From Xanthobacter autotrophicus (lineage in GTDB: Bacteria; Pseudomonadota; Alphaproteobacteria; Rhizobiales; Xanthobacteraceae), in the NCBI RefSeq assembly GCF_029991245.1, contig NZ_JAIVFO010000005.1, forward strand, positions 1 to 64,000: DNA of 64,000 nt, given 5' to 3'. Numbering within the stretch: the first letter of the stretch is position 1; each line of letters opens with the position of its first letter. The position numbers and the translations under genes were made by a program. Positions 1 through 16,279 of the stretch are shown one piece after another. The notes under the pieces are model-generated. The model saw nothing but the letters and a program-made list of their open reading frames with translations. It did not search any database and was not told where the DNA came from.

Positions 1-663
1 CCCCCTCCCCCTGCCCCGGCCTGGCCGCGCAATCCGGATCAGCGGGCGGCAATCCCCTTCCTGATCGCCGATGGGCCCGATCTGGCCGCCCCGCAATTCA
101 TCCGGCGCGACGGCCGGAACGTGCCCCTGTTCCGCCGCGTATCGGCGCGCGCGCTGATGACCTCGGCCGGGACCGTCGTTGCCGCCCGCGCCGTGGCCGA
201 CGACCTGCTGCGCGACCGGTTCGTCATCATCGGCGCCAGCCATGCCGAAAGCATGGACGGTCATCTCACGCCGATCGGCTTCCTTCCCGGGGCCCTGATC
301 GTCGCCAACGCCGTCGCGACGGCGCCCGCCGTGCTGTCGGGCCAACCGCTCGGCGCTGCCGGCGCGACGCTGATCGCGCTGGCGCTGTTCGGAGCCCTGA
401 TGGCGATCACGTCGCGGCTGCGGGCGCTCGCGGCCAGCGTCGTCGTCGCCGTCGCGGTGCTGGGCTCGCTGATGGCGCTCGGCCGCATCTTCGCCCCCTC
501 CACCGCCGGCGACATCGTGCTGGCCGCCCTCGGCATGGTGGCGTTCCTGTCGACCCTTGAAGGCCTTTTCACCCTTTGCAAGGATTGGCGCGCCCGGGGA
601 TGGCGCGCGCTGCTGAAGCCGGAAAAGCCGCGCGCAGCACAAGGCACGGAGGAGGTCGCGTGA
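1..663 (+). CDS. CHASE2-domain membrane protein, 5' end missing
   Basis: The reading frame is open from the first base, so the N-terminus lies left of the window. The visible 220 residues begin with the end of a CHASE2 extracytoplasmic sensor domain (RFVIIGASHAESMDGHLTPI is typical of its last strand, followed by the PGALIVANAVAT helix). About three hydrophobic segments follow, then a short basic cytoplasmic tail. CHASE2 domains usually feed a cyclase, kinase or other signalling domain; here the protein ends shortly after the membrane segments, so no output domain is visible. The stop codon lies 11 bases before the next start, and a GAGGAGGA ribosome site overlaps the stop. It is probably co-transcribed with the exported protein and the caspase downstream. 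Confidence 0.8.
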   Translation, partial: PPPPAPAWPRNPDQRAAIPFLIADGPDLAAPQFIRRDGRNVPLFRRVSARALMTSAGTVVAARAVADDLLRDRFVIIGASHAESMDGHLTPIGFLPGALIVANAVATAPAVLSGQPLGAAGATLIALALFGALMAITSRLRALAASVVVAVAVLGSLMALGRIFAPSTAGDIVLAALGMVAFLSTLEGLFTLCKDWRARGWRALLKPEKPRAAQGTEEVA

Positions 664-674
664 GGAGGACAGCC

Positions 675-1565
675 ATGCTGCTTGCCGGGGTGCGCCGTGG
701 GGTGCTGGCCTTCGCCCTGATGGCTGCCGCGAGCCTTCCGGCACCGGCCGGGGATGGCGCCATGCGCACGCCCGCCGGCTATGTCGTCGGCGTCGAAACG
801 CCCGCCGCCGAGCCCGACGAGGCCGCCCATATCCTGCGCGAGGGGCAGGAGGTCCCGGTCCAGATCGGCGGCGCCCTGTTCGACGGCGACCAGGTGGTGG
901 TGCGCGCGCCCAACACCTGGGTCGCCATCGAGACGGTGAATGATCGCCACATGCGCGTGGACGCGGCGCACTCGCCGCATCCGGTCAAGGGCGAGCTTCC
1001 GGCCGGCGGGCGCTTCAGCGCATTCGCCGCCATGGTCGGGGAGCTGTTCCGGGCGCGGCCGGAGGCGCGGACCGTCAACCTCATCGGGCGCAACGAGGGG
1101 GCATTGCGGCTCCAGATCGGTCGAGGTGTCACCCAGCGCGTGGTTCCCGGGACGCGACTGTGGATCGGCTGGCAGGGCGGCGTGAAGCCCTACACCGTCG
1201 AGATCCGCGACCGGGCCGAAGGCGGCGCCGTGCTGGCTGCGACGCATGCCAGCGGGCGCTCGGCGTCCGTGGCGCTCCCGCGCGAGGCAGCCGGCCCCCT
1301 GCGGCTCTCGGTGAGCGATGCAGAGGGCGCGCAGGTGCATATGGACCTTCTCGCGGACCCGGCGCCGCCCGCCGTCCCGGCATGGATCAGCGAAGGCGCG
1401 CCGACGCCGGCCTTTGGCCAGGTGGCGACCGCGCTCTGGCTGCTTGACCGCAAGCCCGCCGAATGGGACCTGCACGCCGCCGCCATGGCCGCGGAGGCGG
1501 GAGACTACGGCGCCGCCGAGGCATTGCTGGTCCGCCTCGCCGAAGGCAAGAGGCCATCGCGATGA
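675..1565 (+). CDS. exported protein of unknown function upstream of caspase
   Basis: This 296-residue protein starts at ATG 675, 5 bases after GAGGAGGA. The first 25 or so residues form a signal peptide (basic start, LAFALMAAASLPAPAGD), so it should be periplasmic or anchored. Residues about 30-120 read like a small beta-rich domain with GQEVPVQIGGALFDGDQVVV, reminiscent of FecR-type or surface-layer beta folds. The middle could be an Ig-like domain. The C-terminal 60 residues are helical and Ala-rich, like one TPR unit. I cannot assign a family. Its stop overlaps the caspase start (ATGA), which implies translational coupling and a shared role. Confidence 0.7.
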   Translation: MLLAGVRRGVLAFALMAAASLPAPAGDGAMRTPAGYVVGVETPAAEPDEAAHILREGQEVPVQIGGALFDGDQVVVRAPNTWVAIETVNDRHMRVDAAHSPHPVKGELPAGGRFSAFAAMVGELFRARPEARTVNLIGRNEGALRLQIGRGVTQRVVPGTRLWIGWQGGVKPYTVEIRDRAEGGAVLAATHASGRSASVALPREAAGPLRLSVSDAEGAQVHMDLLADPAPPAVPAWISEGAPTPAFGQVATALWLLDRKPAEWDLHAAAMAAEAGDYGAAEALLVRLAEGKRPSR

Positions 1566-3703
1566 GGGTGCGCCGCGTCCTGCTGGTCGCGCTTTCGATC
1601 CTCGGCTGCGCCGTGGCGTCCCCCGCCGCGATGGCGAAGACACGCGCCCTGCTGGTCGGCGTCTCCGACTATCCGGGCTTTCCCGCAGAGAAGCAGTTGA
1701 AGGCGCCGGCCAATGATGTGCGCCGCATGCGGTTGGCGCTGCAAGCGCGCGGCATCGCGGAAGCCGACCTTGCGGTGCTGGCCGACGGGGTGGAAGGCTC
1801 GTCCGGCCCGCCCACGCGCGCGGCCATCCTCGCTGGCATGGAGCGCCTCGCACGGGAGGCGGAGGCGGGCGACCTCGTCATCTTCTATGCGTCCGGCCAT
1901 GGCACCCGCCAGCCCTCGCGCACCAGCCTCAAGGTGGATGGGCTCGACCAGGTGTTCCTCCCCCGCGATGCGTCGCCACCGGCCCCCGGCGGGCCGCGCA
2001 ACCGGTTCGACAACGTCATTGCCGGGCCGGATTTCGGCGAACGCCTGGATGCCATCCGCGCCCGCGGCGCCGATGTCTGGTTCATTCTCGACAGCTGCTT
2101 CTCCGGATCGGCCTCGCGGGCGATCGGCGACGGGGTCCACGACAAGAAGATCGAGCTGGAGGACATCGGCCTTGCGGCCTCCACGGCCATGGCGCCCGAG
2201 AAGACCACGGTGCTCGCAGACCTGGCGCCGGCCCTGCCGCCCGGCTCCGGCAGGCTGACGGCCTTCTACGCCTCGCAGCCGAACGAGACCGCGCGGGAAG
2301 TGGCGCTGCCGCCGGGGGCGCCGATGGACAAGCGCGTCTGGGGCTCGATCTTCACCACCGCCCTCACCGACGTGCTGCAGCGCTCTCCCGCGCTCACCTA
2401 TCGCCAGATGATGGTCGAAGCCGGCCGCCTGCTGCGCGCCGATGCCGCCTTCCAGGCCCGGCAGACGCCGAGTTTCGAGGGCGACGGCATGGATGGGGCA
2501 CTGCCCGGCACGGCCGTCGCCGCAGCGGGCGCGATCTGGCGGGTGAGCGCAGGCGTGCTGCATGCCGGACAGATCGAGGGGGTGGAGGCCGGTGCCGTCG
2601 TGGCGCTCTACGACAGCGCCGCGCCCACCGCCGAAAAGCCCACGGGCTATGCCATGGTCGAGGCCGTGGAGGCGACCCGCGCCACGCTCGCGGCAGCCAA
2701 GCCGGGCTGCATGCCCACGACCACCCGCTGCCCGACGGTGGCGAACGCCCCGGCCCTCAGGCAGGCCGCCTACGCGCGCCTGGCGCGCCCCGCGCCCCCG
2801 GTGGCCTTCGGCATCTCTCACCCTCGCCCGTGGCCCGGCGCCGGCGCGCCGGACGCGGTGGCACAGGCGCGCATGGGCAAGGGGCTTGAAGCCGCGCTCG
2901 CCGGCCCGTTGAAGGAGCGCGCAAGGCTTGACGATACCGCACCCACCCTGGTGGCCTGGATGACGGCGGACGGCTTGCGCTTCATGCCGGACGGCCTCGA
3001 TCCGCTGGCGGTGGAGGCCGGGCCGCTGGCGGTGATCCCGCCCGACGCGAACCCGGACACGGCCGCCGCCGCCATTGCCCGCGCCGTGCTGCGCGCCCGC
3101 CAGCTTTCGCGGCTTCAGGCCCTCGCCGCGGCCACCAGCGCCAACGGCGACCTGGACGTGGCGGTCGAGGTCCGACGCTTCGGGCTTGATCCGGCGACGC
3201 GGCAATGCGCGTTCAAGGCCAATGCGGAGACCGTGGGCGAAGATGCCCTCGTCAAGCTCTGCGACAAGGTGCAGGTCACGGTTGAAAACCGCAGCACGCG
3301 CCCGGTCCTGGCGGCAATCTTCTTCCTCGACGACGCGTGGAACATGATCGCGCGGCGGCCGACCTGCCCCATGGGGCTCACCGTCTCGGACCGGCTGGAG
3401 CCCGGTCGGCGGCTGGTGTTCGAGGTGCCCTACCACCCCCGGGCCATCGTGCCCGGACGTGCGCCGACCACCACCAACGGCGTCTTCGTCATGGGCGTGC
3501 CCTTCGTCGAAGGCGAAACGGACCTGCCCGCGCTGTGCGCCCTGACCGGGTTCAACGATGCGAGCGGCCAGGCCACCCGCGGCGGCGAGACGGGGGGGCT
3601 CGACGACCTGATCGAAGGTGCGACGCGGGGCGGACGGCTGCCGCTCGAAAGCGCCAGCCTGTCCCTTGCCTTCTGGCCCATCAGCCAGCCCGTGAAGCCC
3701 TGA
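1562..3703 (+). CDS. exported caspase-family (C14) peptidase A
   Basis: This 713-residue protein has a signal peptide (RRVLLVALSILGCAVASPAAMA) followed by a caspase-like p20 fold that starts at KTRALLVGVSDY. The catalytic dyad is visible: His113 in YASGHGTRQ and Cys179 in WFILDSCFSGSAS. The p20/p10-like core runs to about residue 320. Residues about 330-470 form a linker with a possible beta domain. The C-terminal 250 residues carry CDKVQVTVENRS and IFFLD, shared with caspase B at 9450-11774 and resembling DUF4384-type modules. The start at ATG 1562 overlaps the preceding stop. An exported metacaspase-like enzyme would most likely cleave after Arg or Lys, but specificity cannot be read here. 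It is convergent with the trypsin gene, 18 bases away. Confidence 0.88.
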   Translation: MRVRRVLLVALSILGCAVASPAAMAKTRALLVGVSDYPGFPAEKQLKAPANDVRRMRLALQARGIAEADLAVLADGVEGSSGPPTRAAILAGMERLAREAEAGDLVIFYASGHGTRQPSRTSLKVDGLDQVFLPRDASPPAPGGPRNRFDNVIAGPDFGERLDAIRARGADVWFILDSCFSGSASRAIGDGVHDKKIELEDIGLAASTAMAPEKTTVLADLAPALPPGSGRLTAFYASQPNETAREVALPPGAPMDKRVWGSIFTTALTDVLQRSPALTYRQMMVEAGRLLRADAAFQARQTPSFEGDGMDGALPGTAVAAAGAIWRVSAGVLHAGQIEGVEAGAVVALYDSAAPTAEKPTGYAMVEAVEATRATLAAAKPGCMPTTTRCPTVANAPALRQAAYARLARPAPPVAFGISHPRPWPGAGAPDAVAQARMGKGLEAALAGPLKERARLDDTAPTLVAWMTADGLRFMPDGLDPLAVEAGPLAVIPPDANPDTAAAAIARAVLRARQLSRLQALAAATSANGDLDVAVEVRRFGLDPATRQCAFKANAETVGEDALVKLCDKVQVTVENRSTRPVLAAIFFLDDAWNMIARRPTCPMGLTVSDRLEPGRRLVFEVPYHPRAIVPGRAPTTTNGVFVMGVPFVEGETDLPALCALTGFNDASGQATRGGETGGLDDLIEGATRGGRLPLESASLSLAFWPISQPVKP

Positions 3704-3721
3704 GGTCCGGAGCCGATTCGC

Positions 3722-4957
3722 TCAGGGGCGCTTCTGCGGCTTGGCGGGCACCTGGGTTGCCGCAGCCGCCGGGGGGGCTGGCGTGGCGATGGTCTTCCTC
3801 ATCCAGTCCGTATAGAGGGCCAGCCGGGTATAGACGCCGGGCAACTCGGCGTGGCCGCAGCCGATGCCGAAGCTGACGATGCCCACCTGGACGAAGGAAC
3901 CGTCCGCCTTCCGGCTGAGGATCGGGCCACCCGAGTCGCCCTGGCAGGTATCCACACCGTCCACGGCGGCGCCGGCGCAGAACATCTGGGGCGTCACCAC
4001 GCCGCCGATCTGGGGGAGCTGCTGCTCCAGCGCCCTGCGACCCGCAGGCGACAGGTTGAACACGTAGCTGAGATCCTCGATCGCCTTGCGCGCATCCGGC
4101 GAGTTCACCAGCGCAGAGGTGAGCACGCGGTTGCACTTGTTGCGATCCACGGCGTTCAGCGTGGTTTCCATCAGGTTGGGCGACGGGCTGCCGCCCTCGG
4201 AGGTCGTGCCCCAGCCGATGATGTGCAGCCTGGCCTCGTTCGGAAGCTCGGTGGGCTCGGACTCCTGCGTCACCACCGTGACCTGCTCGACTTTGACATT
4301 GCGCCGGGGCGCGCGCTCAAGCTCGACCAGGGCGATGTCGTTGACGTTGGTGCCGGTCACATATTTCGGATGGGCAATGATGCGCTTGATCGGAATCCAG
4401 TCGCGCTCGTCCTCCTCGGCGATGAGGCTGGTGTTGCCCACGTGGACGAACAGGTTCTTGGTGCTTCGCAATCCGTCGACCTTGCCGCCCTCGCCCTCGA
4501 CGAAACAATGCGCCGCCGACAGGATCCAGCGCGACGTCAGCACCGTTCCCCCGCACATGGGGGCGAAATTCGTGACCTTTCCGTTGGTGCCGGCCACGCG
4601 GACGATCCCGGCCTGGAACGGATAGCTGCCCGGCGCAGCCTGCTGCCCGCCGACGATCTTCTCGTTGGCACCGCTCTTGAGGATCCCGCCCTTCTTGAGC
4701 GCGATGCCGGCGGCGTCATAGGGCAGCGCGCGGGCATTGCTGCCGGGCCTGGAGGGGCGATCGGCGGGGCCGATGTCGTCCGATGCCGGCAGGGTCGACG
4801 GGCGCGCGCCCACCGCGGCGGGGGCCTGCTCAAGGCGCAGCTGCTCTCCCGGCACCTGAGCCTGGGCGGCGAATGCGCCGCCGGAAAGACACGCCGAGAG
4901 CGCAACGAAACGGAGCGCCGGCCTTTGGACGAGCGGTCGAAGCAACTGGAGCATCAT
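3722..4957 (-). CDS. exported trypsin-like serine protease (S1), probable zymogen
   Basis: This 411-residue chymotrypsin-fold protease has a signal peptide (LRFVALSACLSGGAFAAQAQ) and then a pro-region of about 70 residues. Lys100 directly precedes IVGG, the classic activation site at which cleavage creates the new N-terminus. The catalytic triad is His150 (LSAAHCF), Asp207 (NDIALVELE) and Ser342 (CQGDSGGP). Asp336, six residues before the Ser, matches trypsin Asp189 and predicts cleavage after Lys or Arg, so self-activation or activation by a neighbouring Arg/Lys-specific caspase is conceivable. The start was set at ATG 4957 because it directly precedes the signal peptide; the ribosome site is weak. 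The C-terminal tail is Ala/Pro/Lys-rich. Confidence 0.9.
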   Translation of the reverse strand: MMLQLLRPLVQRPALRFVALSACLSGGAFAAQAQVPGEQLRLEQAPAAVGARPSTLPASDDIGPADRPSRPGSNARALPYDAAGIALKKGGILKSGANEKIVGGQQAAPGSYPFQAGIVRVAGTNGKVTNFAPMCGGTVLTSRWILSAAHCFVEGEGGKVDGLRSTKNLFVHVGNTSLIAEEDERDWIPIKRIIAHPKYVTGTNVNDIALVELERAPRRNVKVEQVTVVTQESEPTELPNEARLHIIGWGTTSEGGSPSPNLMETTLNAVDRNKCNRVLTSALVNSPDARKAIEDLSYVFNLSPAGRRALEQQLPQIGGVVTPQMFCAGAAVDGVDTCQGDSGGPILSRKADGSFVQVGIVSFGIGCGHAELPGVYTRLALYTDWMRKTIATPAPPAAAATQVPAKPQKRP

Positions 4958-5227
4958 GTGAGGCACTCTGTGACGACGGTGGGGATTTCCGGGCCGAGTA
5001 GCCCGAGTGCTCGCCTCTGGCATTCAGGGTCTCCGGGCTGAGCGGGGCAGAGATGAAGGGGGCAGAGAGAACGGATCGACAGGCCGATCCCTTCCGGATG
5101 GGACTTGGGTCCCAGAAGCGGGCGTCTGCGGCAACGCCGCCCCTGGTCTCCACGGACGGTGTCAGTGCGCGCCGGGCACCACGATGACTGCTGGTTTCAT
5201 TCGGCTCCCCACACACGACGCCGCGAG

Positions 5228-5254
5228 AATGTCAGACATTCCGGGAACGTCAAA
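5228..5254 (-). promoter_or_regulatory. palindrome and possible promoter upstream of the trypsin gene
   Basis: The 348-base stretch 4958-5305 between the helical-repeat protein and the trypsin gene holds no credible gene. Inside it, AATGTCAGACATT (5228-5240) is a perfect 13-base palindrome. On the minus strand a TTGACG element at 5253-5248 lies just upstream of it, in a -35-like position. This could be an operator/promoter that lets the trypsin gene be transcribed separately from the caspase B-CHAT-repeat operon. Spacing to a good -10 box is not convincing. Confidence 0.3.
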
Positions 5255-5305
5255 TGGCCCCGCCGGAGCAGGAGCCGTGCCGGCTTGCTCCAACAGGCGA
5301 TCAGC

Positions 5306-7753
5306 TCATCGCCCGTCGGCATCAGGCTTGTCCCCCGAACGGCTGCCGAGCCAATCCGCCCCCACCAGAGTCTCAAGCAGCTTGCGGTCTTCCCGCGCGC
5401 TCATGGTGTCGGTCGCCGGCGGCTTGGGGGTCCGCAGGGCGTCGACGGCGGCCTCCCGCGCCTTCGCCCCGTCGCCCAGGCCGAGATAGGCGAACGCCTG
5501 TGCGCGAAGGATGCGCCGCCCCAGGTCGCGATCGGCCTTCACCCGCCGGCGCGCGCGATCGAGCAGCGTCGACAGGGTGCGGACGGTCTTTTCGTCCGGG
5601 CCGTAATAGGATTCCAGGTTGGCGAGCCCGAGCTGGTCGGAGATGGCCTTCTCCTCGCCGACAAGGACGGGATCGCTGGCCGGAAAGACGTAGGTTTCAT
5701 AGGTCTTGCGTGCGTCGTCCATGCGGCCGAGGGCGGCGTAGAGGCCGGCAAGGTTGCGGGCCGGCTCGACGATGGCCCAAGTGTCCGCCTTGCCCGCCGC
5801 GACGAGGCTGGCGACGGCCCCCTCCCCCAGACGCAGGGCCAAGGCCCGGTCGCCGTCATCGAAGGCCATGAAGGAGCGCCTCAGGTCGAGCCGCACCTGC
5901 GTCGGCAGGTTGACGGTGCCGGCCGCCTCCCGCAGCTTCTGCGCCTCGGCGACGAGCGCCAGCGCCAGGCCCTTGTCGGTCTGGTCCGAGGCCATGTCGA
6001 GCAGAAGCTCGATGCGGTCCGTTTCGCGTCCGGGCTGGCTGGCGACGATTTCATAGGCCTCGCGCGTCAAGCGCACGGTGAGGGCCGGGTTCGACGTTTC
6101 CACGATGCCGGCGCGCAGCGTCAGCAGGCGGGCCAGCGCCGGGGTGCGCCCCTCCGGCGCCGCACGGATGTTGCCGATCGCCTCGTCCGCCATCGCGTCG
6201 GCGCGAGCGCTGTCGCCCCACCAGGCCTCGACGGCGCTGATCCAGCCCAAGATCGCCTCGTCGTGGCGGGGGTCCTGCCCGGGCAGCCGGCGCGCCAGGC
6301 GCCCGATGAATTCCACGGCGGCGGCATAGGTGGGGAAGACGTAGTCCTTCAAGCCCGCATAGTGGATCACGGTCAGCTGTTCGATCCGGTCGAAATCGTC
6401 GAGGGCGAGGGTGGCGACCTGGCGATCGACAGCGGCCCATTCGGCTGCGGCGAGGCGTGGCGCGTTGGCGGTCGCGGCGATCCGGGCGTTTTCGATCTGG
6501 AGGAGAGCGGCAGTCAGCCGCCGCTCCAGAAGGCCCGGCGCGGCGGCGGAAAGAGGTGCGTCGGGCTCGGCCATGCCGGATAAAGTGGCCGCGCGCTGCA
6601 GCGCCAGCATGCGGCGGGCCAGCTCGATGGAGCCGTTTCGCAAGGCCCGCCGGGCGATATGGCCGCACATCTGGACGACGCGCGGGTCATAGGTGCCAAG
6701 GTCGATCTGCGTGCGGGCGATGCGCGCGCCGATGAGAGCGGCCGCCGTCGCTTCGCCGATGCTGGCGAGATAGTTGGCGACGAGGTCAGCGCTCGCCAGC
6801 AGGTCCCGATCGTGGTCCTCGCGGTTCAACTGACGCAGCAGGAGCAGGTCGCGCGCCGCATCGTAGCGCTCCTCGCGCAGCGAACCCGACGGCACGTCGT
6901 TCAGGAGATTCGACAGGATCTTGTCCGCCAGGGCGGCATCACCGGTCACGATGGCGCGGTCCGCGGCCTGCCGGCACGCCGCCATGCGGGCCGCATCCGG
7001 CGCGGCGGTGCCCATGCAATCGTCCGGTCCGGGAAGCGGGCTGCCGGCCCGCTCGGCCACCGGTGCCTCCAGCGCGCCGATGACCGTATCGAGTTTCCCG
7101 GCATTGACCGTGTCCATCCGCCCCTTGCGCGCCAGGGCCTGGGCCCGGCGGAAGAAGAAGAGCGCCAGCTCGGGCCGGTCCTCGGCTTGCAGGCGCTGCC
7201 CCATGAGGGCCGCGGCCATGGCCTGCGTTTCCTCCAGATCGTCGGAAAGCGCGCCACCGCCCCGTGGGGGCTTTCCCGCCGCCAGCACGTTCATCAGCAC
7301 GTAGAATTGCAGCGTGCCGATATCATGGCGGCGATAGGTTTCGGCGAGCGTCAGTTCAGCGATGACCGTATCGGGGGCGTTCAGCGGCGCCGTGAGGTAA
7401 TTCAACAGAACCGAATGGACATTCCCGCGTATTTCCGCGGCGCGATCCTTGAGCCGGGCGCCGGCATATCCCGTCAGATCGTAGAGGACGAGCAGGAGAT
7501 CCGGATCGCCCTCGTCCTCCAGGGCCTCGCGCAGCGGGAGCAGCAAGGCCATGGCCGCCTTTGCCTTGTTGTCCTCGATCAGGCTTTGCGCCGCCCCCAG
7601 ACGGTCGCGGATATCCGCCAGCCGACGCGCCGTGTCGGCCGTCTCCTGCGTCGCCTGCGCGGAGCCCGCTCCAGCGGTCTGCGACCACCCCGGGCCGCCG
7701 GTGGCCAGGGCCATGAGGTGAACCAACACGACGATCAGCGCGAGGGGCTTCAC
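5306..7753 (-). CDS. exported helical (TPR-like) repeat protein
   Basis: The GTG start at 7753 overlaps the stop of the CHAT gene (GTGA). That start directly precedes a signal peptide (LALIVVLVHLMALATGGPGWS), giving 815 residues. The mature protein is almost entirely alpha-helical and Ala/Leu/Arg-rich. Helix pairs such as RNLAGLYAALGRMDDARKTY and ILRAQAFAYLGLGDGAKARE look like degenerate tetratricopeptide repeats, clearest in the last 200 residues. No catalytic motif is seen. CHAT and caspase peptidases are often paired with TPR proteins that bind or present substrates, so an adaptor or substrate role is likely but inferred. It is the last gene of a tightly coupled three-gene operon. Confidence 0.75.
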   Translation of the reverse strand: MKPLALIVVLVHLMALATGGPGWSQTAGAGSAQATQETADTARRLADIRDRLGAAQSLIEDNKAKAAMALLLPLREALEDEGDPDLLLVLYDLTGYAGARLKDRAAEIRGNVHSVLLNYLTAPLNAPDTVIAELTLAETYRRHDIGTLQFYVLMNVLAAGKPPRGGGALSDDLEETQAMAAALMGQRLQAEDRPELALFFFRRAQALARKGRMDTVNAGKLDTVIGALEAPVAERAGSPLPGPDDCMGTAAPDAARMAACRQAADRAIVTGDAALADKILSNLLNDVPSGSLREERYDAARDLLLLRQLNREDHDRDLLASADLVANYLASIGEATAAALIGARIARTQIDLGTYDPRVVQMCGHIARRALRNGSIELARRMLALQRAATLSGMAEPDAPLSAAAPGLLERRLTAALLQIENARIAATANAPRLAAAEWAAVDRQVATLALDDFDRIEQLTVIHYAGLKDYVFPTYAAAVEFIGRLARRLPGQDPRHDEAILGWISAVEAWWGDSARADAMADEAIGNIRAAPEGRTPALARLLTLRAGIVETSNPALTVRLTREAYEIVASQPGRETDRIELLLDMASDQTDKGLALALVAEAQKLREAAGTVNLPTQVRLDLRRSFMAFDDGDRALALRLGEGAVASLVAAGKADTWAIVEPARNLAGLYAALGRMDDARKTYETYVFPASDPVLVGEEKAISDQLGLANLESYYGPDEKTVRTLSTLLDRARRRVKADRDLGRRILRAQAFAYLGLGDGAKAREAAVDALRTPKPPATDTMSAREDRKLLETLVGADWLGSRSGDKPDADGR

Positions 7754-9450
7754 CGGCCTTCCCCCACCATGACGAAGGGCGCCCAGATCGCCGGATGCGC
7801 CAGCGTGGGGTCCGAGGGATCGGCGATCAGCGCGAGGGTGGCGCGGCGGAACGCTTCCGCCTTGGACAGGTCGGGTTCGGCCCGCAGCGCCGCCAGGGTT
7901 CCGGTGGTCAGCCGCGCGGCCGCATCGTCCCGCACCGGCCAGTGCGAGACCAGCAAGGTGCGGGCTCCGGCATAGAAGAAGGCCCTGGCGAGGCCCGACA
8001 GGCCGTCGGCGCCCGGCGTGCCGTCGCCGCCGGCGGTGTTGCAGGCGGACAGGATCACCCAGTCGGCGAACAGGTTCAGCCGGGCCGCTTCGGAGGCGGT
8101 GAGCAGGCCGTCGTCCGGGCCGTCGGCCTCCGGCGGGGTGAAGACGAGGGCGGGTTCCGACAGGCCGGGGATATCGCCCGCCAGCAGGCCGTGGGTGGCG
8201 AAGGCAAGCACGCGATAAAGGGAGAGGTCGGCCGCCTGGACCGCGCTCTTGGTGGCGGCAGCGCCGACCTGCACGGAGTCCGGGGCCGCACCCAGCGTCT
8301 GGGCCAGCCGGCGCAATTCGCCTTCCGTCTGGGGCAGCGGCGCCAGGCTGCGGACGGTTTCCAGATTGACCTTGCCGCCGCGCAGCAGCGTGCCTGCGGT
8401 ATCCGCGGCGTTGCTCGCCACCTGGGCCGGGGAGCGGCGGCCGTCGAGCTGCGGGGCGCCATAGCCGCGGAACGGCAGCGGGGCCGGCGGCCCAGCGGCG
8501 GCCGCCCGCAGCGACTTGAGGCTCGACACCGAGGGCAGCGTCACGATGCCCTGCCGCCTGATCAGCCACGACGTGTCGCGCAGCGCGGAGGGGTCGGTAT
8601 CGTCCCCGGTGGGCGGCTCGGTCACCAGAAGCGCGAAGGGCAGCGAATCGAACGGCCGCTCGGCGACGACGAAGATGCGCGCGCGGTCCGCCAGCACGGC
8701 GTCGAGCGGCGCCAGCATCCGCCGGAAGAGGTCATGGGCGGCGGCGCGGCTGAAGCGCACGCGCATGCCGGTATCGGCGCCCTCCACATCGGTGTCGCCG
8801 AAATCGCGCAGCGCTGAGCGCATCACCGCCACCGCGCCCGGATCGAGCCCGGCGCGCAGGGACTTCACCTGCGCGATCAGGGCCTCGCGCTCGACCGGCA
8901 CACGGTGCCAGTCCGCAGCATCGCGAGTCACCGCCCAGACGAAGGTCTCGCGGGTGGCGACGAAGACCAGCACCAGCGCCTCGTCCTCCCGCAGCAGGGC
9001 CTGCGCCGCGGCGATCGGCACCGGCTGGGGCTGTGAGAGTTCGGCATAGGCGGGGAAGCGCACAGCCATGTCGCGGTCGCTTTCGGCGATGCGCGCCTGG
9101 AGCGCATCAACCTCCGCGCGGCGCGCCTCCACCACCGGTTCATTGCCCGTGCCCGCTGCTCCGAGGACCTGCACGAGCGCCCGGTCGGCGCTCTTCCATG
9201 CCGTGACGAGATCCTGCCGCTGCCGCACGAGGCGAGCCAGGTCGTCCGAACCGGCGGCGAAACGCACCCCGAGCTGGGCCAGCGCCATGCTGGCCGAGGT
9301 GAGCATGGCGCTCTGGGCGTACTGGAAGGCCTCGTCGCGCAAGTGCGCCGGAGGCGGCAAGGCGTCCTGCGCCATTGCGGGCGCCATGCGCGACAGGAGC
9401 ATGCCGAGTACGCCGAGCGCAAGCAGGGCGAGGCGAGCGGCCCGGCGCAT
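7750..9450 (-). CDS. exported CHAT-domain peptidase
   Basis: This 566-residue protein begins at ATG 9450, which overlaps the caspase B stop by one base. A signal peptide (LALLALGVLGMLLSRMAPAMA) precedes a helical segment (about 35-140). The CHAT domain fills about residues 150-566, with the expected dyad His420 (AFATHGLLAGD) and Cys470 (VILSACNTAGGDG), and typical ARTLLVSHWPVRDDA and AHPAIWAPFVMVG motifs near the end. CHAT belongs to the same protease clan (CD) as caspases and separase. Most studied CHAT proteins are cytoplasmic, so the export signal is notable. Coupling to a caspase on one side and a helical-repeat protein on the other suggests one complex or cascade. Confidence 0.9.
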   Translation of the reverse strand: MRRAARLALLALGVLGMLLSRMAPAMAQDALPPPAHLRDEAFQYAQSAMLTSASMALAQLGVRFAAGSDDLARLVRQRQDLVTAWKSADRALVQVLGAAGTGNEPVVEARRAEVDALQARIAESDRDMAVRFPAYAELSQPQPVPIAAAQALLREDEALVLVFVATRETFVWAVTRDAADWHRVPVEREALIAQVKSLRAGLDPGAVAVMRSALRDFGDTDVEGADTGMRVRFSRAAAHDLFRRMLAPLDAVLADRARIFVVAERPFDSLPFALLVTEPPTGDDTDPSALRDTSWLIRRQGIVTLPSVSSLKSLRAAAAGPPAPLPFRGYGAPQLDGRRSPAQVASNAADTAGTLLRGGKVNLETVRSLAPLPQTEGELRRLAQTLGAAPDSVQVGAAATKSAVQAADLSLYRVLAFATHGLLAGDIPGLSEPALVFTPPEADGPDDGLLTASEAARLNLFADWVILSACNTAGGDGTPGADGLSGLARAFFYAGARTLLVSHWPVRDDAAARLTTGTLAALRAEPDLSKAEAFRRATLALIADPSDPTLAHPAIWAPFVMVGEGR

Positions 9451-11774
9451 CAGCGGCTCGCCTCCGGCGGGAGCAGGTCGAGCGTGAACTGCCGCACCAC
9501 CACCGCGCTTGCTTCGCCGGCCTCCTCCTCGAACGGGTTGGCCGCGCGCAGGCTGGGATCGACCAGCGCCGCCCGTCCCAGCAGATCGACGAAGGCGCGG
9601 TGGCCGGCGCCGCCGCGCATGGCCGCGGCACCCGCCGCCGCCGCTTCCACGTCGCGCTGCAGCAGGTGGCACAGGGAGGGCGGGATGCCGCCGCTGCGCG
9701 GCAGGGCGAAGACGAGGATGCGGTGCAGGCCGATCTGCGATGGCCCGTTCCTGCCCCAGGTGCGCAACGTGGTGCGCAACACCACCGGCCCCGAAGCCTT
9801 TGCCGGCAGCGTGGTGATGCAGCCGTTCTGACGCCAGTCCCGCACGGGTACGTCGATGCCCGCCAGCGGATCGAGGAAGAAGATGCCGAGATCCACGTCG
9901 CGTTCGGAGCGGTTGGCGATGGTCAGGCGCACCGTGTCGCAATGGGCCACGGCCGCCGCTGTGCCGCTGTCCACGGGCAGAGGGGGCGAGGCCCGCGAGA
10001 CCTGACCGCAACTGCGTCGCGGATCGGCCAGCCGCTCGGGATCGGTCTCCCGGATCCGGTCGAGGCTGATATCGATGTCGCCCGCTCCTTCGGCCGCGCC
10101 CCGTTCGGCGACGCTGGCGAGACGCACGAGATTGGCGGCGCGCGCATAGGCCCACACGGCGGTGCGGAGCTGCGAGGCCAGCAGCTCGGCCGGGGTCGCG
10201 ACCGGGATCGAGACGCTGCGGCCGTAGGCCTCACGATCGCGCACCAGGAGGCCGCCGTCCGGCACCAGCCAGATCTGTCCGTCGGCGAGGTGCAGGCGCA
10301 GATCCGCGGGCTGGCCCGGCGCAACCTGCTCGATACCGATCGCCGGCACGCCCTCGCGGGGTTGGAAGGCGAGGTCGATCACGCCTGCAACGTCAGGATG
10401 GTCGATGCCCGCCACGCGGAAGTGGAAGGCGACGCCGGGACGCTCCATCTGTGCCCAGATGCCGCCGCTGTCGGTGCGGCCGCCCGGTGGCGCCGGCAGG
10501 TCGGCCAGTGGCGCCCGGCTCGCGCTGGCCGTGGCGGTCGCGAGCCGGGCCATGCCGAGCCGGCGCGCATCCGGCAGCGGGCCGTCGAACAGGGCGATCT
10601 CCGAGCCCTCGTCGAAACCCTGCAGGGCACCGGCCTCGATCACCAGGTCGGTGCCCTCGCGCTGCGCGGCGAAGCGCGGAACCGCACCCGGCTGCGCGCC
10701 GAGCACGCCGCGGTCGAGGTCGCCCTCGAACACCGGCAGGGGGGCGTGGGCCACGCGCGCCGCCGCCGCGATGTCGAGGGAGACCAGGCGGGCGAGGTCG
10801 CGGAAGCTGCGCGCGCGCCCGGTTTCGAGCGCGCGCAGCAAATGCCAGGTGAACACGCCGAATGTGGCCTGCGGGCCATCCCCGGCGAGCGTCTTTCCGG
10901 CGAGGCCTTCCGCCGGTGCCGGATAGGCCCGCTCGATGGCCGGGGTCCAGGAATCGACCGCGAAGAAGGCGATCAGGCCACCCGCGCCGCCGGGGGGCGA
11001 TCCGTCAGCCGCGCGCAGCGTCCCGTTGCGCTCGGGCGCGCGGGCCGGAGCAGTTGCCGACGACGACGGCGCGCCCGCGGGCGACACCCCGAGGATCGAA
11101 GAATCCACGCCCCGCGTGGCCTCGGCCGAGCGCGTGACCGTTCCGGCGTGGCAGGCATCGATGACGACCCATACCGTGGCGCCCTTGGCGCGGATGCGGT
11201 CGAGCGCGGCGCCAAGCTCGTTGTCGACGATGGCGTTGCGGATGGTCTTCGCCACCGGATCGTAGAGGCCGGAATCCTTGGGCAACAGAACCTGGTCGAG
11301 GCCTCCGGCCTCGGGCTGGACGCCGTCGGCGGCGACTTCCGGCTGGGTGGTGCCGTGGCCGGAAAAGTGGAACAGCACGAAGTCGCCGGGTCCGGCCCGG
11401 TCGGCGAGGCGGGCGAGACCTTCCAGTATGGCGGCACGCACCGGCGCGGCGCGGGGGCGCGGCGTATCGGCGGCCTCCGGCAGCCCCTCGGCCAGAACCT
11501 CGATGTCGGCGGCGTCGAAGGCATGGCGGGTGAGATACCGCCACAGCAGGATCACATCGTTGCGCGGCCCGGCGAGGGCGCGGATCTTCGGCTCGTCATA
11601 ATCGGCGACGCCCACCAGCAGGGCAAGGTTGCGCGCCGAGGCAGGGGTCGGCAGCACAAGCCCGGCGGCGAGGACGAGGAAGCAGGCAAGGAGGCAGGCA
11701 GGGACGAGGAGGCAGGCCAACCCACCGCTCCCACGCCGGTTGCGCCCGCCTTTCGCCACCGCGCGCACGATCAA
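9450..11774 (-). CDS. exported caspase-family (C14) peptidase B
   Basis: This protein has 774 residues from TTG 11774; GTG 11768 is an alternative. The N-terminal hydrophobic stretch (CLLVPACLLACFLVLAAGLV, then PTPASA) is a signal peptide or anchor. The caspase domain begins at RNLALLVGVADYDE; the dyad is His140 (FHFSGHGTTQ) and Cys208 (VVIDACHAGT). After a low-complexity Ala/Ser stretch the core ends near residue 340. Residues 612-635 carry CDTVRLTIANRS and GIFFLD, the same module as in caspase A, so the two are diverged paralogues. It is the first gene of the caspase B-CHAT-repeat operon. The C-terminal 80 residues are unlike caspase A. Confidence 0.87.
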   Translation of the reverse strand: MIVRAVAKGGRNRRGSGGLACLLVPACLLACFLVLAAGLVLPTPASARNLALLVGVADYDEPKIRALAGPRNDVILLWRYLTRHAFDAADIEVLAEGLPEAADTPRPRAAPVRAAILEGLARLADRAGPGDFVLFHFSGHGTTQPEVAADGVQPEAGGLDQVLLPKDSGLYDPVAKTIRNAIVDNELGAALDRIRAKGATVWVVIDACHAGTVTRSAEATRGVDSSILGVSPAGAPSSSATAPARAPERNGTLRAADGSPPGGAGGLIAFFAVDSWTPAIERAYPAPAEGLAGKTLAGDGPQATFGVFTWHLLRALETGRARSFRDLARLVSLDIAAAARVAHAPLPVFEGDLDRGVLGAQPGAVPRFAAQREGTDLVIEAGALQGFDEGSEIALFDGPLPDARRLGMARLATATASASRAPLADLPAPPGGRTDSGGIWAQMERPGVAFHFRVAGIDHPDVAGVIDLAFQPREGVPAIGIEQVAPGQPADLRLHLADGQIWLVPDGGLLVRDREAYGRSVSIPVATPAELLASQLRTAVWAYARAANLVRLASVAERGAAEGAGDIDISLDRIRETDPERLADPRRSCGQVSRASPPLPVDSGTAAAVAHCDTVRLTIANRSERDVDLGIFFLDPLAGIDVPVRDWRQNGCITTLPAKASGPVVLRTTLRTWGRNGPSQIGLHRILVFALPRSGGIPPSLCHLLQRDVEAAAAGAAAMRGGAGHRAFVDLLGRAALVDPSLRAANPFEEEAGEASAVVVRQFTLDLLPPEASR

Positions 11775-11902
11775 AGGGCGCCTCGACTTGTCAGAGAACC
11801 GCCCATGGCCGGTCCGTCCCCCTCTTTTGCGCGACTATAGGCCGTAGCCTTACGGTCCGGAAGAGGTTGGGAGCGCACGGGATTTCGCGTGGGGTGAACA
11901 GC

Positions 11903-12472
11903 TCAGTCCCGGCAGCCGGTGAGCTTCCAGAGCCCGTCCGGCGGCACGAAGCTTCGACCGTCGCGCTTCCAGGTCCAGAAGGCCTTCGACAGGCCGGGAA
12001 GCTGGAGCAGCGGCGGGGCCTTCGGCGTGCCCTCGCCCGGGGGATCAACCCGCTTCAGGTCGTCGCCGAAATAATAGAGCAGCGCGGACGGCGCCGTGGT
12101 CGCGTTGAACCCCTTGCGCTTGCCGCCGGTCTTGCCTCCATCTCTGCCGCCGTCCTGGCCATTCTCCGGCCTGCCCGGCGGTGCCAGCATGAAGACGTGG
12201 GTGGCGCTGAAGCCGGGCGGATCGGCGATGCCGAACGTCGCGGCCAGCCTCTGCCGGTTCTCGGCGAGGCGAATCACCCAGGGCCGGTCGGAGGACGTGC
12301 CGTCCTTGCGCGGATGGGTGATCTCCCAGCTGTTGGCAATGCCCTCCGGCGCGCTCCAGTCGTCATCCGCATCGAGCGGCGTATAGACGGCCCGCTCCAG
12401 CGGACAATCCAATGCCGCTGCCGGCACCGCAGCACCAACGAGGAAGAAGGCGGTGCAGGCGACTCGGATCAT
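11903..12472 (-). CDS. small exported protein of unknown function
   Basis: From ATG 12472 this encodes 189 residues with a clear signal peptide (MIRVACTAFFLVGAAVPAAA) followed directly by LDCPLERAVYTPLD. Cysteines sit near both ends of the mature protein (DCPLE and LTGCRD) and could form a disulfide. A Gly/Asp/Lys-rich loop lies near residue 125. No family is recognised. It lies 128 bases upstream of caspase B on the same strand, so it may be the first gene of that operon or an independent periplasmic protein. Confidence 0.65.
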   Translation of the reverse strand: MIRVACTAFFLVGAAVPAAALDCPLERAVYTPLDADDDWSAPEGIANSWEITHPRKDGTSSDRPWVIRLAENRQRLAATFGIADPPGFSATHVFMLAPPGRPENGQDGGRDGGKTGGKRKGFNATTAPSALLYYFGDDLKRVDPPGEGTPKAPPLLQLPGLSKAFWTWKRDGRSFVPPDGLWKLTGCRD

Positions 12473-12510
12473 GATCGACCTCGTTGGATTTTGGCGCGAG
12501 GTTAGCGCAG

Positions 12511-13560
12511 ATGATGGGGGCGGCAAGACAGGACATGCGGACGAACGAGGACAGGCCCGCCGGGCCGGTGGCGCTCGCAGGCATCCGGGTGGATCGCCCG
12601 GGCGTGGACCGGCTGGCCGCCCGGGGGCTCATCTGCGCCGCAGCGCGCGACGAGGCCCTCGCCTTGATGGAGCCGCCGCGCCGCTGGGGGCTGTGGGCCG
12701 GGCGGCTCATGGGCACGGTGGGGGCGGCGCTGGTGCTGTCCGGCATCGTCTATTTCTTCGCCTTCAACTGGAACGAGATCCCGCCCCTCGCCAAGCTCGG
12801 GGCCATCGCCGCGCTCATCGCCGCCGCCTGCCTCGGCGTCCTCGTCCCCGGGCTCGAGCGGCGGGCCTTCGAGCCGGCCGCGGCGGCGGCGGTGATGCTG
12901 GTGGGCGTGTTCCTCGCCGTTGAGGGCCAGATCTACCAGACCGGCGCCGACGCCTGGACCCTGTTTGCCGCCTGGGCCGGCCTGACCCTCGCCTTTGCGC
13001 TGCTCGCCTGTTCCGCAGCCACATGGGCGGTGTGGATCGCCGTCGCGGCCGTGACCGTCGTCACCTGGTGGGACCAGACGCAACCCGACGCGGCCTTCCA
13101 CACCGGCAGCAACCTCAGCCTGATGGCGCTCTTCGCCATCGCGCTGGGCGCGCGGGAAGCGCTGGCGGCACGGGGCTTCGCCTGGCCGGCGGCGCGCTGG
13201 ACGCGGTTCTATCTCGCCCTTCCGGCCCTCGCGGCCGCGACCCAGCTGGCGTTCTTCCTGATCGAGGAAGGTGGCGGCTTCGGCCCCGCCGAATGGGGCG
13301 CCCTCGCTCTGATCGCGCTCACCCTTGCCGCCATGGGTGCGCTGTATCGATACGTGATCCCTGATGTGGTCCTGCTGGCGGCGGTGACCCTCGCGGGGTG
13401 CGCCATCGCCGATTTCGCCTTGTTCCGGCTGCTCGCGAACGGCAACGGGCGCGTCCATATGGGGACTTTTTTCGCGATGGGACTCGCCACCCTCGCCTTG
13501 TTTGCGGCCGCCGTCGCATGGCTCAGGGCGGTCTCGCGGCGGATGGAGGCCCGGCCATGA
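12511..13560 (+). CDS. DUF2157 integral membrane protein
   Basis: This is about 349 residues from ATG 12511; ATG 12514 and 12535 and a TTG at 12484 are also in frame, and none has a strong ribosome site. The N-terminal 60 residues contain the soluble GLICAAARDEAL segment typical of DUF2157. About nine or ten hydrophobic helices follow, including GAALVLSGIVYFFAFNWNEI, the most conserved DUF2157 part. The function is unknown. It is the first of three overlapping genes (DUF2157, DUF4401, GDYXXLXY) that occur together in many proteobacteria, which implies a membrane complex. Confidence 0.85.
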   Translation: MMGAARQDMRTNEDRPAGPVALAGIRVDRPGVDRLAARGLICAAARDEALALMEPPRRWGLWAGRLMGTVGAALVLSGIVYFFAFNWNEIPPLAKLGAIAALIAAACLGVLVPGLERRAFEPAAAAAVMLVGVFLAVEGQIYQTGADAWTLFAAWAGLTLAFALLACSAATWAVWIAVAAVTVVTWWDQTQPDAAFHTGSNLSLMALFAIALGAREALAARGFAWPAARWTRFYLALPALAAATQLAFFLIEEGGGFGPAEWGALALIALTLAAMGALYRYVIPDVVLLAAVTLAGCAIADFALFRLLANGNGRVHMGTFFAMGLATLALFAAAVAWLRAVSRRMEARP

Positions 13561-14684
13561 ACCGCCCCTCCATCACCCGGCCCTCCATCGATGCCGAAAC
13601 GCTCATGGCCTCCTGGCAGGCTTCCGGCGCGCTGCCGCCGGAGGCCCATGGGGCGGTGGTCGAGGCAGTGCGCGCCGCGGCCGCCGAGGAGCATCCGCCG
13701 CTTCACCTGAAGATCCTCTCCGCCGTCGGGACCCTGCTGGCGACGCTGTTTTTCCTCGCCTTCCTCGTGGTCGCAGACATCATCTCGCTCAGCAGCGGCA
13801 GCAGCCTCCTGGGCTGGGGCCTGGCGTTCCTCGCGGCGGGCATCGGCCTGTCCCTCGCCCTCCCGCGTGCCGCACAGGGCATCGGCCGGGACATCCTCGC
13901 CCAGACCGCCTTCACCGCCATGGCCCTCGGCAAGGTGATGACCGTCTCCGGCATCGTCTTGCTCGCGGGCGCGCACACGACCTGGGTGCCGACCGCCGCC
14001 ATCCTGGCGGTGACCATCGCCACCTACCCGGTGTCCGCCTCCTCGCTGGACCGCATCCTGTCGCCCTATGCCGTCGCCGCCTCGGCGCTGCTGGAGGTCC
14101 TGGGGCGCGGGAGCTTCGGCCGCGATCCGAGCCTGGCCCTTGCCGCCATGTTCACGGCGGCGACCGCGGTGGCGGGGCTTCTCCTCCTCGTCCACCGGGT
14201 CCCGCTGGCGCTGCGGCCCATCGGGATCGCCGCCCTCGCCACCATGGGGACCATCGTCTGCATCCTCGCCTCGGGGCGCGACGCCGGGCTGTGGGCGAAC
14301 CAGCGGCCGCTGGATCCGCGCGTCATCGAGGTGGTGCTGACCCTGTCGCTGGTCGGCACCATCGCCTGGGCCGCGGGTGGGGTGGGCAAGCTCGTCCGGC
14401 CGCCGCTGGCCGCGGCAACGGTCGGCGTGGTCCTCCTGGGCTTCGCGGGCGCTCCCGGCATCAGCTTCGCATTGCTGGTCCTCATCATCGGCCATGCCCT
14501 CCACGACATGCCGCTGCGGGTGGTCGGCGTGCTGGCGCTGCCGGTTTTCCTGGTGCTCTGGTACTATGGTCGGGACATGACGTTCCTGGAGAAGTCCGCC
14601 ACCCTGGTTGGCAGCGGCCTGCTGCTGCTCGCTGGGCAGGCGATCATCACCCGCGCCGGCTGGGATCGGGAGGAGGCGCCATGA
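13557..14684 (+). CDS. DUF4401 integral membrane protein
   Basis: This 375-residue protein starts at ATG 13557, overlapping the DUF2157 stop (ATGA). A short soluble N-terminus (AETLMASWQASGALP) is followed by about ten hydrophobic helices; LGWGLAFLAAGIGLSLAL and RVVGVLALPVFLVLWYYGRD are typical of DUF4401. It has no enzymatic motif. It is translationally coupled on both sides. Confidence 0.85.
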   Translation: MNRPSITRPSIDAETLMASWQASGALPPEAHGAVVEAVRAAAAEEHPPLHLKILSAVGTLLATLFFLAFLVVADIISLSSGSSLLGWGLAFLAAGIGLSLALPRAAQGIGRDILAQTAFTAMALGKVMTVSGIVLLAGAHTTWVPTAAILAVTIATYPVSASSLDRILSPYAVAASALLEVLGRGSFGRDPSLALAAMFTAATAVAGLLLLVHRVPLALRPIGIAALATMGTIVCILASGRDAGLWANQRPLDPRVIEVVLTLSLVGTIAWAAGGVGKLVRPPLAAATVGVVLLGFAGAPGISFALLVLIIGHALHDMPLRVVGVLALPVFLVLWYYGRDMTFLEKSATLVGSGLLLLAGQAIITRAGWDREEAP

Positions 14685-15112: not shown

Positions 15113-15171
15113 CGGCCGAGGCCGGCGCGCCAAGAGCCGAAGCAGCACGAGCCGTTGCGCCATCGTCCGGC

Positions 15172-16082: not shown

Positions 16083-16210
16083 GGCAGCTATTCGCTCTCC
16101 GTGCCAAGATGAACCGGGAAGGCGAGTGCGGAACCTTCCACATGCTCAGGGCGGTGTCGATCCGCTGCCCCGCGGTCCGGAGCCTTGCTTGGCCATCCCC
16201 TCAACCCCGC

Positions 16211-16229
16211 GCCCCCTCCTTGAGGGGGC
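16211..16229. repeat. GC-rich hairpin
   Basis: GCCCCCTC and GAGGGGGC form an 8-bp stem around a 3-base loop in the 197-base gap 16083-16279. No T-run follows in either direction, so terminator function is doubtful, but it lies downstream of the 82-residue gene on the minus strand and could end its transcript. Confidence 0.35.
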
Positions 16230-16279
16230 CGGAGGCGCCGGACGAGACAGTTCAAATGCGGCGGGATCTTCAGACAGGC

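Follow-up and report, generated by a model that had tools for sequence, protein, structure and literature searches.

Described bacterial caspase, CHAT and trypsin systems are mostly read as cytoplasmic immune effectors. The left end of a 64,000-nucleotide stretch of DNA from the soil bacterium Xanthobacter autotrophicus (the window) carries genes for all three kinds of protease, which an initial annotation took for one machine acting in the envelope. The question raised by this locus is whether its genes encode a single exported protease system.

Gene content and layout of the block

ORF calls and profile searches placed eight genes at positions 1-12472 of the window (Table 1), whose first base is also base 1 of its contig (C451), which leaves no room to extend it leftwards in this genome. 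The gene set was as initially annotated, but the number was given as seven; it is eight because the 301-aa and the 189-aa products both answer to the description of an uncharacterized exported protein.

Table 1. Features of the protease block and the adjoining genes (window coordinates).
Feature	Position	Strand	Remarks
CHASE2 membrane protein, C-terminal 220 aa	1..663	+	PF05226 E=1.7e-7; 5' part lost at contig end
X301, 301-aa exported protein (predicted)	660..1565	+	GTG start overlaps CHASE2 stop; signal-like N-terminus
CASP1, long caspase, signal-like N-terminus, H113/C179	1562..3703	+	PF00656 (Peptidase_C14) E=1.6e-19
Trypsin-like precursor, H150/D207/S342	3722..4957	-	PF00089 E=1.7e-46; alternative start 5023
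HEL815, 815-aa all-helical protein, signal-like N-terminus	5306..7753	-	predicted TPR-like superhelix
CHAT protease, 566 aa, signal-like N-terminus, H420/C470	7750..9450	-	PF12770 E=2.7e-52
CASP2, long caspase, signal-like N-terminus, H140/C208	9450..11774	-	PF00656 E=9.1e-15; start codon uncertain
UNK189, 189-aa protein, signal-like N-terminus, no family assigned	11903..12472	-	kept in G002, G005, G008
DUF2157 and DUF4401 membrane proteins	12484..14684	+	divergent from block

The genes form two convergent arms, with stops ending at 3703 and 3722. In the sensor arm, the CHASE2 and X301 genes are joined by GTGA and the X301 and CASP1 genes by ATGA. In the effector arm, CASP2 and CHAT overlap by one base, and CHAT and HEL815 are joined by GTGA. 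The trypsin gene is uncoupled, with a gap of 282-348 bp to the HEL815 gene, and the CASP2 start (only TTG and GTG candidates in the first 20 codons) lies at least 128 bp from the UNK189 gene. The argument that tight coupling indicates one machine was not supported in that form, since the coupling defines two separate convergent units and leaves the trypsin gene out. The DUF2157 and DUF4401 genes are probably neighbours of the block rather than parts of it; of the 14 genus genomes, the 5 with HEL815 are also the ones with the DUF4401 gene.

The CHASE2 gene of the relative G002 is a 580-codon ORF (start uncertain) in which the CHASE2 domain spans residues 162-491; a single hydrophobic stretch precedes it, several lie at the C-terminus, and no further domain exceeded the cut-off. 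X301 is 66-83% identical to its counterparts in three relatives; the window protein had no Pfam match at E<=10, no match was obtained in the plasmid search, and its structure model was poor (mean pLDDT 43). A FecR family label, given by eye only, was rejected, the sole match among four members being irrelevant (E=0.18). UNK189 showed 73-88% identity to its counterparts in G002, G005 and G008 and no credible family match in profile searches.

The AlphaFold2 model of HEL815 was all helical (mean pLDDT 72.8), and its best PDB matches by Foldseek were largely TPR proteins with low TM-scores. The initial description as an 815-residue helical-repeat protein thus stands for the predicted fold, which is TPR-like, but not for the sequence, as the Pfam TPR matches were non-significant (best E=0.07). 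Sequence kinship with the repeats of TPR-CHAT proteins found no support, the best hhalign probability against five of them being 0.8. The 566-aa CHAT protein had no TPR match and is not a fused TPR-CHAT protein. In CHAT neighbours elsewhere, repeats N-terminal to CHAT scored above the cut-off in L078, L080, L172, L189 and L192 and below it in L081 and L086, and the Xanthobacter CHAT protein aligns to the C-terminal part of the repeat-bearing ones. In Csx29/Craspase, a CHAT protease is controlled by a repeat part. HEL815 probably represents the repeat part of a TPR-CHAT protein in detached form, and it would regulate CHAT in trans.

Active sites, zymogen site and N-termini

The catalytic dyads and triad (Table 1) are intact in the window, as had been claimed, and invariant among aligned relatives, in 4 of 4 sequences for CASP1 and 5 of 5 each for CASP2, CHAT and trypsin. 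CASP1 and CASP2 each have a p20 domain with a His-Cys dyad and are orthocaspase-type Peptidase C14 proteins, and the CHAT domain is full length (profile positions 2-289 of 289, PF12770). The trypsin-like protein has the features of an S1A zymogen, namely the triad, a basic activation site and an Asp located six residues ahead of the catalytic Ser. Its propeptide ends at NEK/IVGG, with a basic P1, and NEKIVGG is invariant in 5 of 5 sequences. Trypsin precursors can self-activate, and therefore cleavage at K/IVGG needs no caspase. Two Asp positions of the metacaspase substrate pocket are given in the consulted part of PMC6426788; the candidate counterparts, matched by eye, are D52/D177 (CASP1) and D73/D206 (CASP2), both invariant. 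The two caspases would accordingly be expected, from sequence, to cleave after Arg or Lys.

A simple rule, distinct from SignalP, found a hydrophobic N-terminal stretch followed by an A-x-A-type site in all seven complete products, in line with the signal sequences initially annotated. A related rule fired in 104 of 477 control ORFs (22%), with starts allowed to +30 aa in the controls, a narrower range than the +150 aa used for the cases. Of the 12 long caspases tested with this related rule, 11 were scored as signal-peptide-like, as were all 12 CHAT neighbours tested; L174, the one caspase missed, shows by eye a stretch close to the threshold, and L191a was matched at a wrong start, although its annotated N-terminus looks signal-like. 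A lipobox-like Cys was seen by eye in several CHAT neighbours. By these predicted N-termini, the block proteins would be exported.

Conservation in Xanthobacter and related loci

The whole block is kept in the same order in 3 of the 13 other genus genomes (4 of 14 counting this one). One MAG, G010, holds only CASP2-CHAT-HEL815-trypsin; no second caspase and no X301 were found in this genome, and neither of the two contigs read gave a match to UNK189. The expected recurrence of gene set and order was therefore seen in four genomes, and the partial separation of the genes, named beforehand as speaking against a single system, was found in G010. Neither the HEL815 nor the X301 gene was seen in 9 of the 13 other genus genomes, and HEL815 was not found in any of 396 further genomes sampled from the order. 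In comparisons with three relatives, dN/dS of the seven complete genes was 0.16-0.36. This purifying selection, together with the conserved order, rules out chance or an annotation artefact. No serpin was found in the 14 genus genomes, and a search of viral contigs gave one pattern match, none being a CHAT relative. The original observation of a gene set for putatively exported proteases is confirmed, with the corrections given above, and its earlier interpretation is partly supported.

CASP1 and CASP2 belong to one clade of long caspases (support 100/98). They are not tandem duplicates, as they are not sisters and CASP2 falls outside a group (94/83) holding CASP1. Of 11 long-caspase loci from outside Xanthobacter (five full-length model hits other than the window, two loci that helped build the model, and four plasmid records picked by organism among the 25 of 166 matches listed), 7 had a CHAT or trypsin gene no more than 10 kb away, compared with 1 of 40 ordinary class caspases, which were hand-picked among the matches listed, one per genome and with long contigs favoured, from the 63 of 289 genomes with a match. 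Five of the 40 comparison stretches were shortened by contig ends (L104, L121, L128, L130 and L131), and the caspase model recognised the caspase in only 29 of them. None of 37 control stretches was positive. Three loci known beforehand stood outside the 40, namely G599:C10, whose caspase is itself a long one, and two loci with trypsin or CHAT, G512:C6 and G716:C4; adding the latter two gave 7/11 versus 3/42 (p=2e-4). One positive, L173, was a weak trypsin match at about 9-10 kb, and without it and the model loci the proportion was 5/9 (p=4e-4 versus 1/40; p=2e-3 versus 3/42). In G822, a 2854-aa CHAT ORF lies about 4 kb from a long caspase but went uncounted, its CHAT match being beyond 10 kb. 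The usual Cys motif was not found by pattern search in L173 and L174, whose caspases may be inactive.

Among 14 partial matches to the long-caspase model (G950, G584 and G908 left out), five loci were positive, by CHAT in L175, L176, L181 and L186 and by a trypsin-caspase fusion in L183. This does not differ clearly from 7/11, and the CHAT/trypsin link is shared by caspases outside the long clade. A general rule that caspases sit beside CHAT or trypsin is nevertheless false for the ordinary class caspases.

In L172, from another class, genes for CHASE2, an overlapping 296-aa exported protein (predicted), an ECF sigma factor, a caspase and a TPR-CHAT protein all lie on the same strand. The 296-aa protein had no significant similarity to X301 (probability 2.5), and the match is therefore only positional. 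Distant X301 relatives directly follow CHASE2 in L080, L081 and L083, facing a CHAT protein. A further relative, L082, did not fit the pattern when read in context, and two others, G654 and G573, were left out of this reading. A two-partner-secretion exoprotein gene (PF05860, E=1.1e-21) adjoins the CHAT gene of L083; the layout of L080 and L081 resembles it by eye, not by family search. The models used found no caspase or trypsin in these three loci, which may therefore put CHASE2-X301-CHAT to a different use. Trypsin-caspase fusions were present in L037, L084, L086 and L183, the last being of QC type by its motifs, with a serpin gene directly after the fusion in 3 of 4. Among the papers listed or consulted in the literature search, none was seen to describe the Xanthobacter block or the trypsin-caspase/serpin arrangement, which pairs an enzyme with an inhibitor.

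Proposed circuit, alternatives and known systems

We propose, at about even chances, a sensor-gated protease circuit of the envelope in which a basic-specific caspase or CHAT activates trypsin. CHASE2 would act as a sensor in the inner membrane, its sensor domain being exported; X301, an exported protein made together with it, and the TPR-like scaffold HEL815 would be likely partners, holding or gating the proteases. One or more of the cysteine proteases of the circuit, CASP1, CASP2 and CHAT, would cut the trypsin precursor at K/IVGG, and the freed trypsin would attack targets in or outside the envelope. The sensor arm (CHASE2-X301-CASP1) and the effector arm (CASP2-CHAT-HEL815-trypsin) would be separable modules. 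G010, where the effector arm is present but the sensor arm is not, is a counterpoint to the circuit; L172, in which CHASE2, the 296-aa protein, the caspase and TPR-CHAT share a strand, is a counterweight to such separation. As to the end use, we can only guess: the circuit might kill, remodel the surface or defend the cell against phage or predators. If the proposal is true, regulated proteolytic relays would operate in the bacterial envelope, carried by a sensor-linked gene set with signal-like N-termini and a conserved basic zymogen site. A bolder and rather doubtful extension is a widespread extracytoplasmic cascade of Pseudomonadota, built like animal coagulation or complement. CHASE2 would be its sensor, and long caspases that are exported, along with scaffold-held CHAT, its initiators; the trypsin zymogen would be its amplifier and, in sister loci, the serpin its brake. 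The Xanthobacter block would be one full version, without serpin.

The strongest competitor, though on the unlikely side, is that two independent modules, each with its own function, lie side by side by chance or shared regulation. The convergent arms, the uncoupled trypsin, the single arm of G010 and the non-sister placement of CASP1 and CASP2 all fit it, but the order is identical in four genomes, L172 has CHASE2 on the same strand as caspase and CHAT, and CHAT or trypsin is a frequent neighbour of long caspases. Surface remodelling, in which the proteases serve, under a CHASE2 switch, to mature, shed or recycle adhesins or slime proteins of the cell itself, without death or defence, is somewhat less probable. 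It draws on the exoprotein gene beside the CHAT gene that faces CHASE2 and an X301 relative in L083, yet the Xanthobacter block has no exoprotein gene, and by the models used L080, L081 and L083 lack caspase and trypsin.

Secreted proteases for nutrition or quality control, with no signalling, appear improbable: a sensor, a scaffold and two caspases exceed the needs of digestion, and the serpin genes that follow fusions in other loci point to tight control, though Xanthobacter has none. Exported peptidases could nonetheless degrade outside or misfolded protein, and extracellular protein degradation by metacaspases is speculated upon in part of PMC4933709. That the N-terminal helices are membrane anchors of a cytoplasmic conflict system is very improbable. 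One-helix anchors can mimic signal peptides and the rule applied is crude, but A-x-A-type sites follow the hydrophobic stretch in all seven complete products, and the lipobox-like Cys of several CHAT neighbours also argues against it.

The sensor-gated envelope circuit that we favour shares protease folds and a proteolytic relay logic with the EAD, STAND and VMAP conflict systems, as far as parts of PMC8195603 and PMC10907252 describe them, but profile searches found no adaptor or NTPase domain of these types in the eight block proteins. Both caspases scored below the EACC1-associated caspase cut-off (NCBIfam NF047832; 50.3 and 38.6 bits, cut-off 140). They matched the PADLOC caspase model PDLC02987 (E=1.8e-15 and 6.3e-20); no other PADLOC 2.0.0 model matched well (BovA versus CHAT, E=0.026), and the block did not correspond to a known anti-phage system in that set. 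The association of a repeat domain with a CHAT protease recalls Csx29/Craspase, according to parts of PMC10028731 and PMC11106740, but the Xanthobacter block has no CRISPR part, its proteins carry a signal-like N-terminus and its repeat protein is encoded by a separate gene. Asplund-Samuelsson 2012 (PMC3501461, in part) noted that some bacterial caspases may carry signal peptides, and reported a metacaspase-CHASE2 protein of Trichodesmium whose caspase the authors placed in the cytoplasm. The block is similar in having caspases with a signal-like helix and in combining CHASE2 with a caspase; it differs from the Trichodesmium protein in that the caspase is separate, has its own signal-like N-terminus and lies beside CHAT and trypsin. 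A further comparison is with the trypsin/QC pseudo-orthocaspase/DUF4384 fusions of Alphaproteobacteria (Klemencic 2019, PMC6426788, in part), which link trypsin to a caspase p20 domain in one protein and to whose QC type L183 belongs. DUF4384 had no match in the eight block proteins; in contrast to these fusions, the Xanthobacter genes are separate, their caspases have a His-Cys dyad, and CHAT, HEL815 and CHASE2 are added to the set.

Organization and conservation of the caspase block

The first base of the window is also the first base of a 70,892-base contig, and the block that starts there comprises eight genes. The initial annotation had counted seven, and its CHASE2 end, two caspases, CHAT peptidase, 815-residue protein (HEL815) and trypsin were all recovered. 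The plus-strand arm, formed by CHASE2, the 301-residue protein X301 and the long caspase CASP1, is joined by GTGA and ATGA overlaps, and the minus-strand arm, which contains the second long caspase (CASP2), by a one-base overlap and then GTGA. The arms are convergent, and their stop codons lie 18 bases apart; 282-348 bases separate trypsin from HEL815 and at least 128 bases separate the 189-residue protein UNK189 from CASP2. The tight coupling proposed for the set thus applies within each arm, but neither between the convergent arms nor to the trypsin gene.

The whole block, with its order kept, was found in X. oligotrophicus 29k and X. autotrophicus DSM 432 and AM3 (protein identity 62-96%), but only partly in an uncultured Xanthobacter MAG (G010). 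There, CASP2, CHAT, HEL815 and trypsin are spread across two contigs and adjoin the same DUF2157/DUF4401 genes. The 93% complete G010 genome encodes a single caspase; X301 was not found in it, nor UNK189 on the two block contigs. HEL815 was present in 5 of 14 genus genomes, counting that of the window, and DUF4401 occurred in exactly these five; the block may thus represent either an island or a lineage trait. In a sample of 397 genomes of the order, only the window's own genome yielded HEL815. The dN/dS values of the seven complete genes were 0.16-0.36. The block is real and conserved.

Features of the block and of related loci
Feature	Stretch	Positions	Details
Whole block	window	1-12472
CHASE2 protein	window		last 220 codons only, + strand
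X301	window		301 aa, + strand
CASP1	window		713 aa, + strand
UNK189	window		189 aa, - strand, first reading right to left
CASP2	window		up to 774 aa, - strand, after UNK189
CHAT	window		566 aa, - strand, after CASP2
HEL815	window		815 aa, - strand, after CHAT
Trypsin	window		411 or 433 aa, - strand, after HEL815
HEL815 C-terminal tail	window	5306-5400
DUF2157 and DUF4401 genes	window	12484-14684
Last 32 CHAT codons, three in tandem	L036 (G010)	6267-6787	contig end; repeat or assembly artefact
CHASE2 through TPR-CHAT	L172	2414-13864	one strand
Small related proteins	L077	14500-15249
Small related proteins	L078	2614-4154
Small related proteins	L172	9279-10194
Small related proteins	L190	12236-12703
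Small related proteins	L191	9375-9995
Two long caspases, trypsin, PDZ trypsin, patatin protein, annotated two-component system	L191	1192-12082	plasmid of Pseudosulfitobacter sp. DSM 107133; caspases, trypsins and patatin protein within 12 kb
OmpA-type gene, trypsin-caspase-DUF4384 fusion, serpin	L183	3586-10939
OmpA-type gene, trypsin-caspase-DUF4384 fusion, serpin	L084	6458-13180
OmpA-type gene, trypsin-caspase-DUF4384 fusion, serpin	L086	7175-11759
Second caspase region of the genus	L037 (X. oligotrophicus 29k)	6570-17023	caspase, PP2C-like protein (by eye), Ser/Thr kinase, trypsin-pseudocaspase fusion

Predicted export, active sites and HEL815

By a simple rule, all seven complete products carried a hydrophobic N-terminus and an A-x-A-type site, which gives rule-based support to the signal sequences assigned to them earlier. 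A second rule, applied to other genomes, scored all 12 CHAT neighbours tested and 11 of the 12 long caspases as signal-like, together with the tested trypsins, fusions and serpins. Of the 11 positive caspases, L191a had been read from an incorrect start, but its N-terminus at the annotated start looks signal-like; the single miss, L174, was near-threshold by eye. Since 104 of 477 control ORFs, with a start range narrower than that of the cases, were also positive, single calls are weak, whereas the set as a whole is not.

The catalytic residues are intact, as first reported: the His/Cys pairs of the caspases and of CHAT, like the triad of trypsin, were invariant among four or five aligned sequences. 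The trypsin precursor site NEK|IVGG was kept in 5/5, and an Asp lies six residues ahead of the catalytic Ser. PMC6426788 gives two Asp residues for the metacaspase basic-substrate pocket, and both caspases carry two matching Asp residues by our reading of the correspondence. Judged from this site and these pocket residues, the activation site could be cleaved by the caspases, perhaps CHAT, and trypsin itself.

HEL815 was predicted to be entirely helical, with a mean pLDDT of 72.8 and poor confidence over residues 693-815; the model matched largely TPR proteins at low TM-scores. In scanned CHAT neighbours elsewhere, same-chain repeats precede CHAT, five of them scoring above the cut-off and two below, and the Xanthobacter CHAT is the counterpart of their C-terminal part. 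From the modelled fold and this analogy, rather than from sequence, we infer that CHAT and HEL815 may be a split TPR-CHAT. The HEL815 tail, REDRKLLETLVGADW, is strongly conserved although poorly modelled, and is possibly a docking or cleavage tail.

Related loci in other genomes

CASP1 and CASP2 are about 30% identical across roughly 600 residues. A tree built from 51 caspase domains placed both, with 12 caspases of other genomes, inside one 16-row clade (support 100/98), the remaining rows lying outside, but not as sisters. CHAT (L078, L172, L189, L192) or trypsin (L173, weak; L174; L191) lay within 10 kb in 7 of 11 clade loci outside Xanthobacter, against CHAT near one and trypsin near none of 40 other alphaproteobacterial caspases (p=2e-5, or 2e-4 once two known positives join the comparison set); 37 control stretches contained neither. 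Among 14 loci matching the long-caspase model in part only, however, four had CHAT and one a trypsin-caspase fusion, so the link seems to be a property of a wider set of exported caspases. The case for a role of just the long clade becomes weaker with this result, whereas that for an exported circuit, with its estimated probability, is unchanged. Small related proteins of unknown family, modelled from L077 and L078 members, adjoin long caspases in 5 of the 11 loci.

Four signal-like proteins (L037, L183, L084, L086) combine trypsin and caspase domains in one chain. The caspase dyad is replaced in L037, has lost its His in L183, and keeps His and Cys in L084 and L086. In L183, L084 and L086, a serpin gene lies directly 3' of the fusion (Pfam). 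An OmpA-type gene lies upstream; it was identified by Pfam in L183 and by eye in the other two, and in L084 and L183 a further caspase-like gene separates it from the fusion. Trypsin-pseudocaspase-DUF4384 fusions were known before (PMC6426788); the word "serpin" is absent from the main text of that paper.

A candidate envelope circuit

We give roughly even chances to an envelope circuit: the CHASE2 arm would act as sensor, the CASP2-CHAT-HEL815-trypsin arm as executor, and a basic-specific cut of the trypsin precursor would be the commitment step. The strongest structural rival is that two modules lie side by side, because G010 has only part of the block. When 384 other genomes of the class were searched with an X301 profile, six contained distant relatives. 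Of four read in context, those in L080, L081 and L083 (profile probability 95, identity 25%) lie directly 3' of a CHASE2 gene with overlapping longest ORFs, and the pair faces a CHAT protein; L082 showed no such arrangement. In L172, from another class of the phylum, CHASE2 is followed by an overlapping 296-residue protein without significant similarity to X301, three small proteins with signal-like N-termini (by eye), an ECF sigma factor, a probable membrane protein, a long caspase and TPR-CHAT. These loci make it more likely, G010 notwithstanding, that CHASE2, caspase and CHAT are one system. A two-partner-secretion exoprotein adjoins the facing CHAT gene (by Pfam in L083, by eye in L080 and L081), which makes surface remodelling the strongest functional rival.

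No description of the block was found in the papers covered. It is best called a variant among the caspase/CHAT/trypsin systems known from bacteria; its signal-like N-termini and its sensor and zymogen parts distinguish it.
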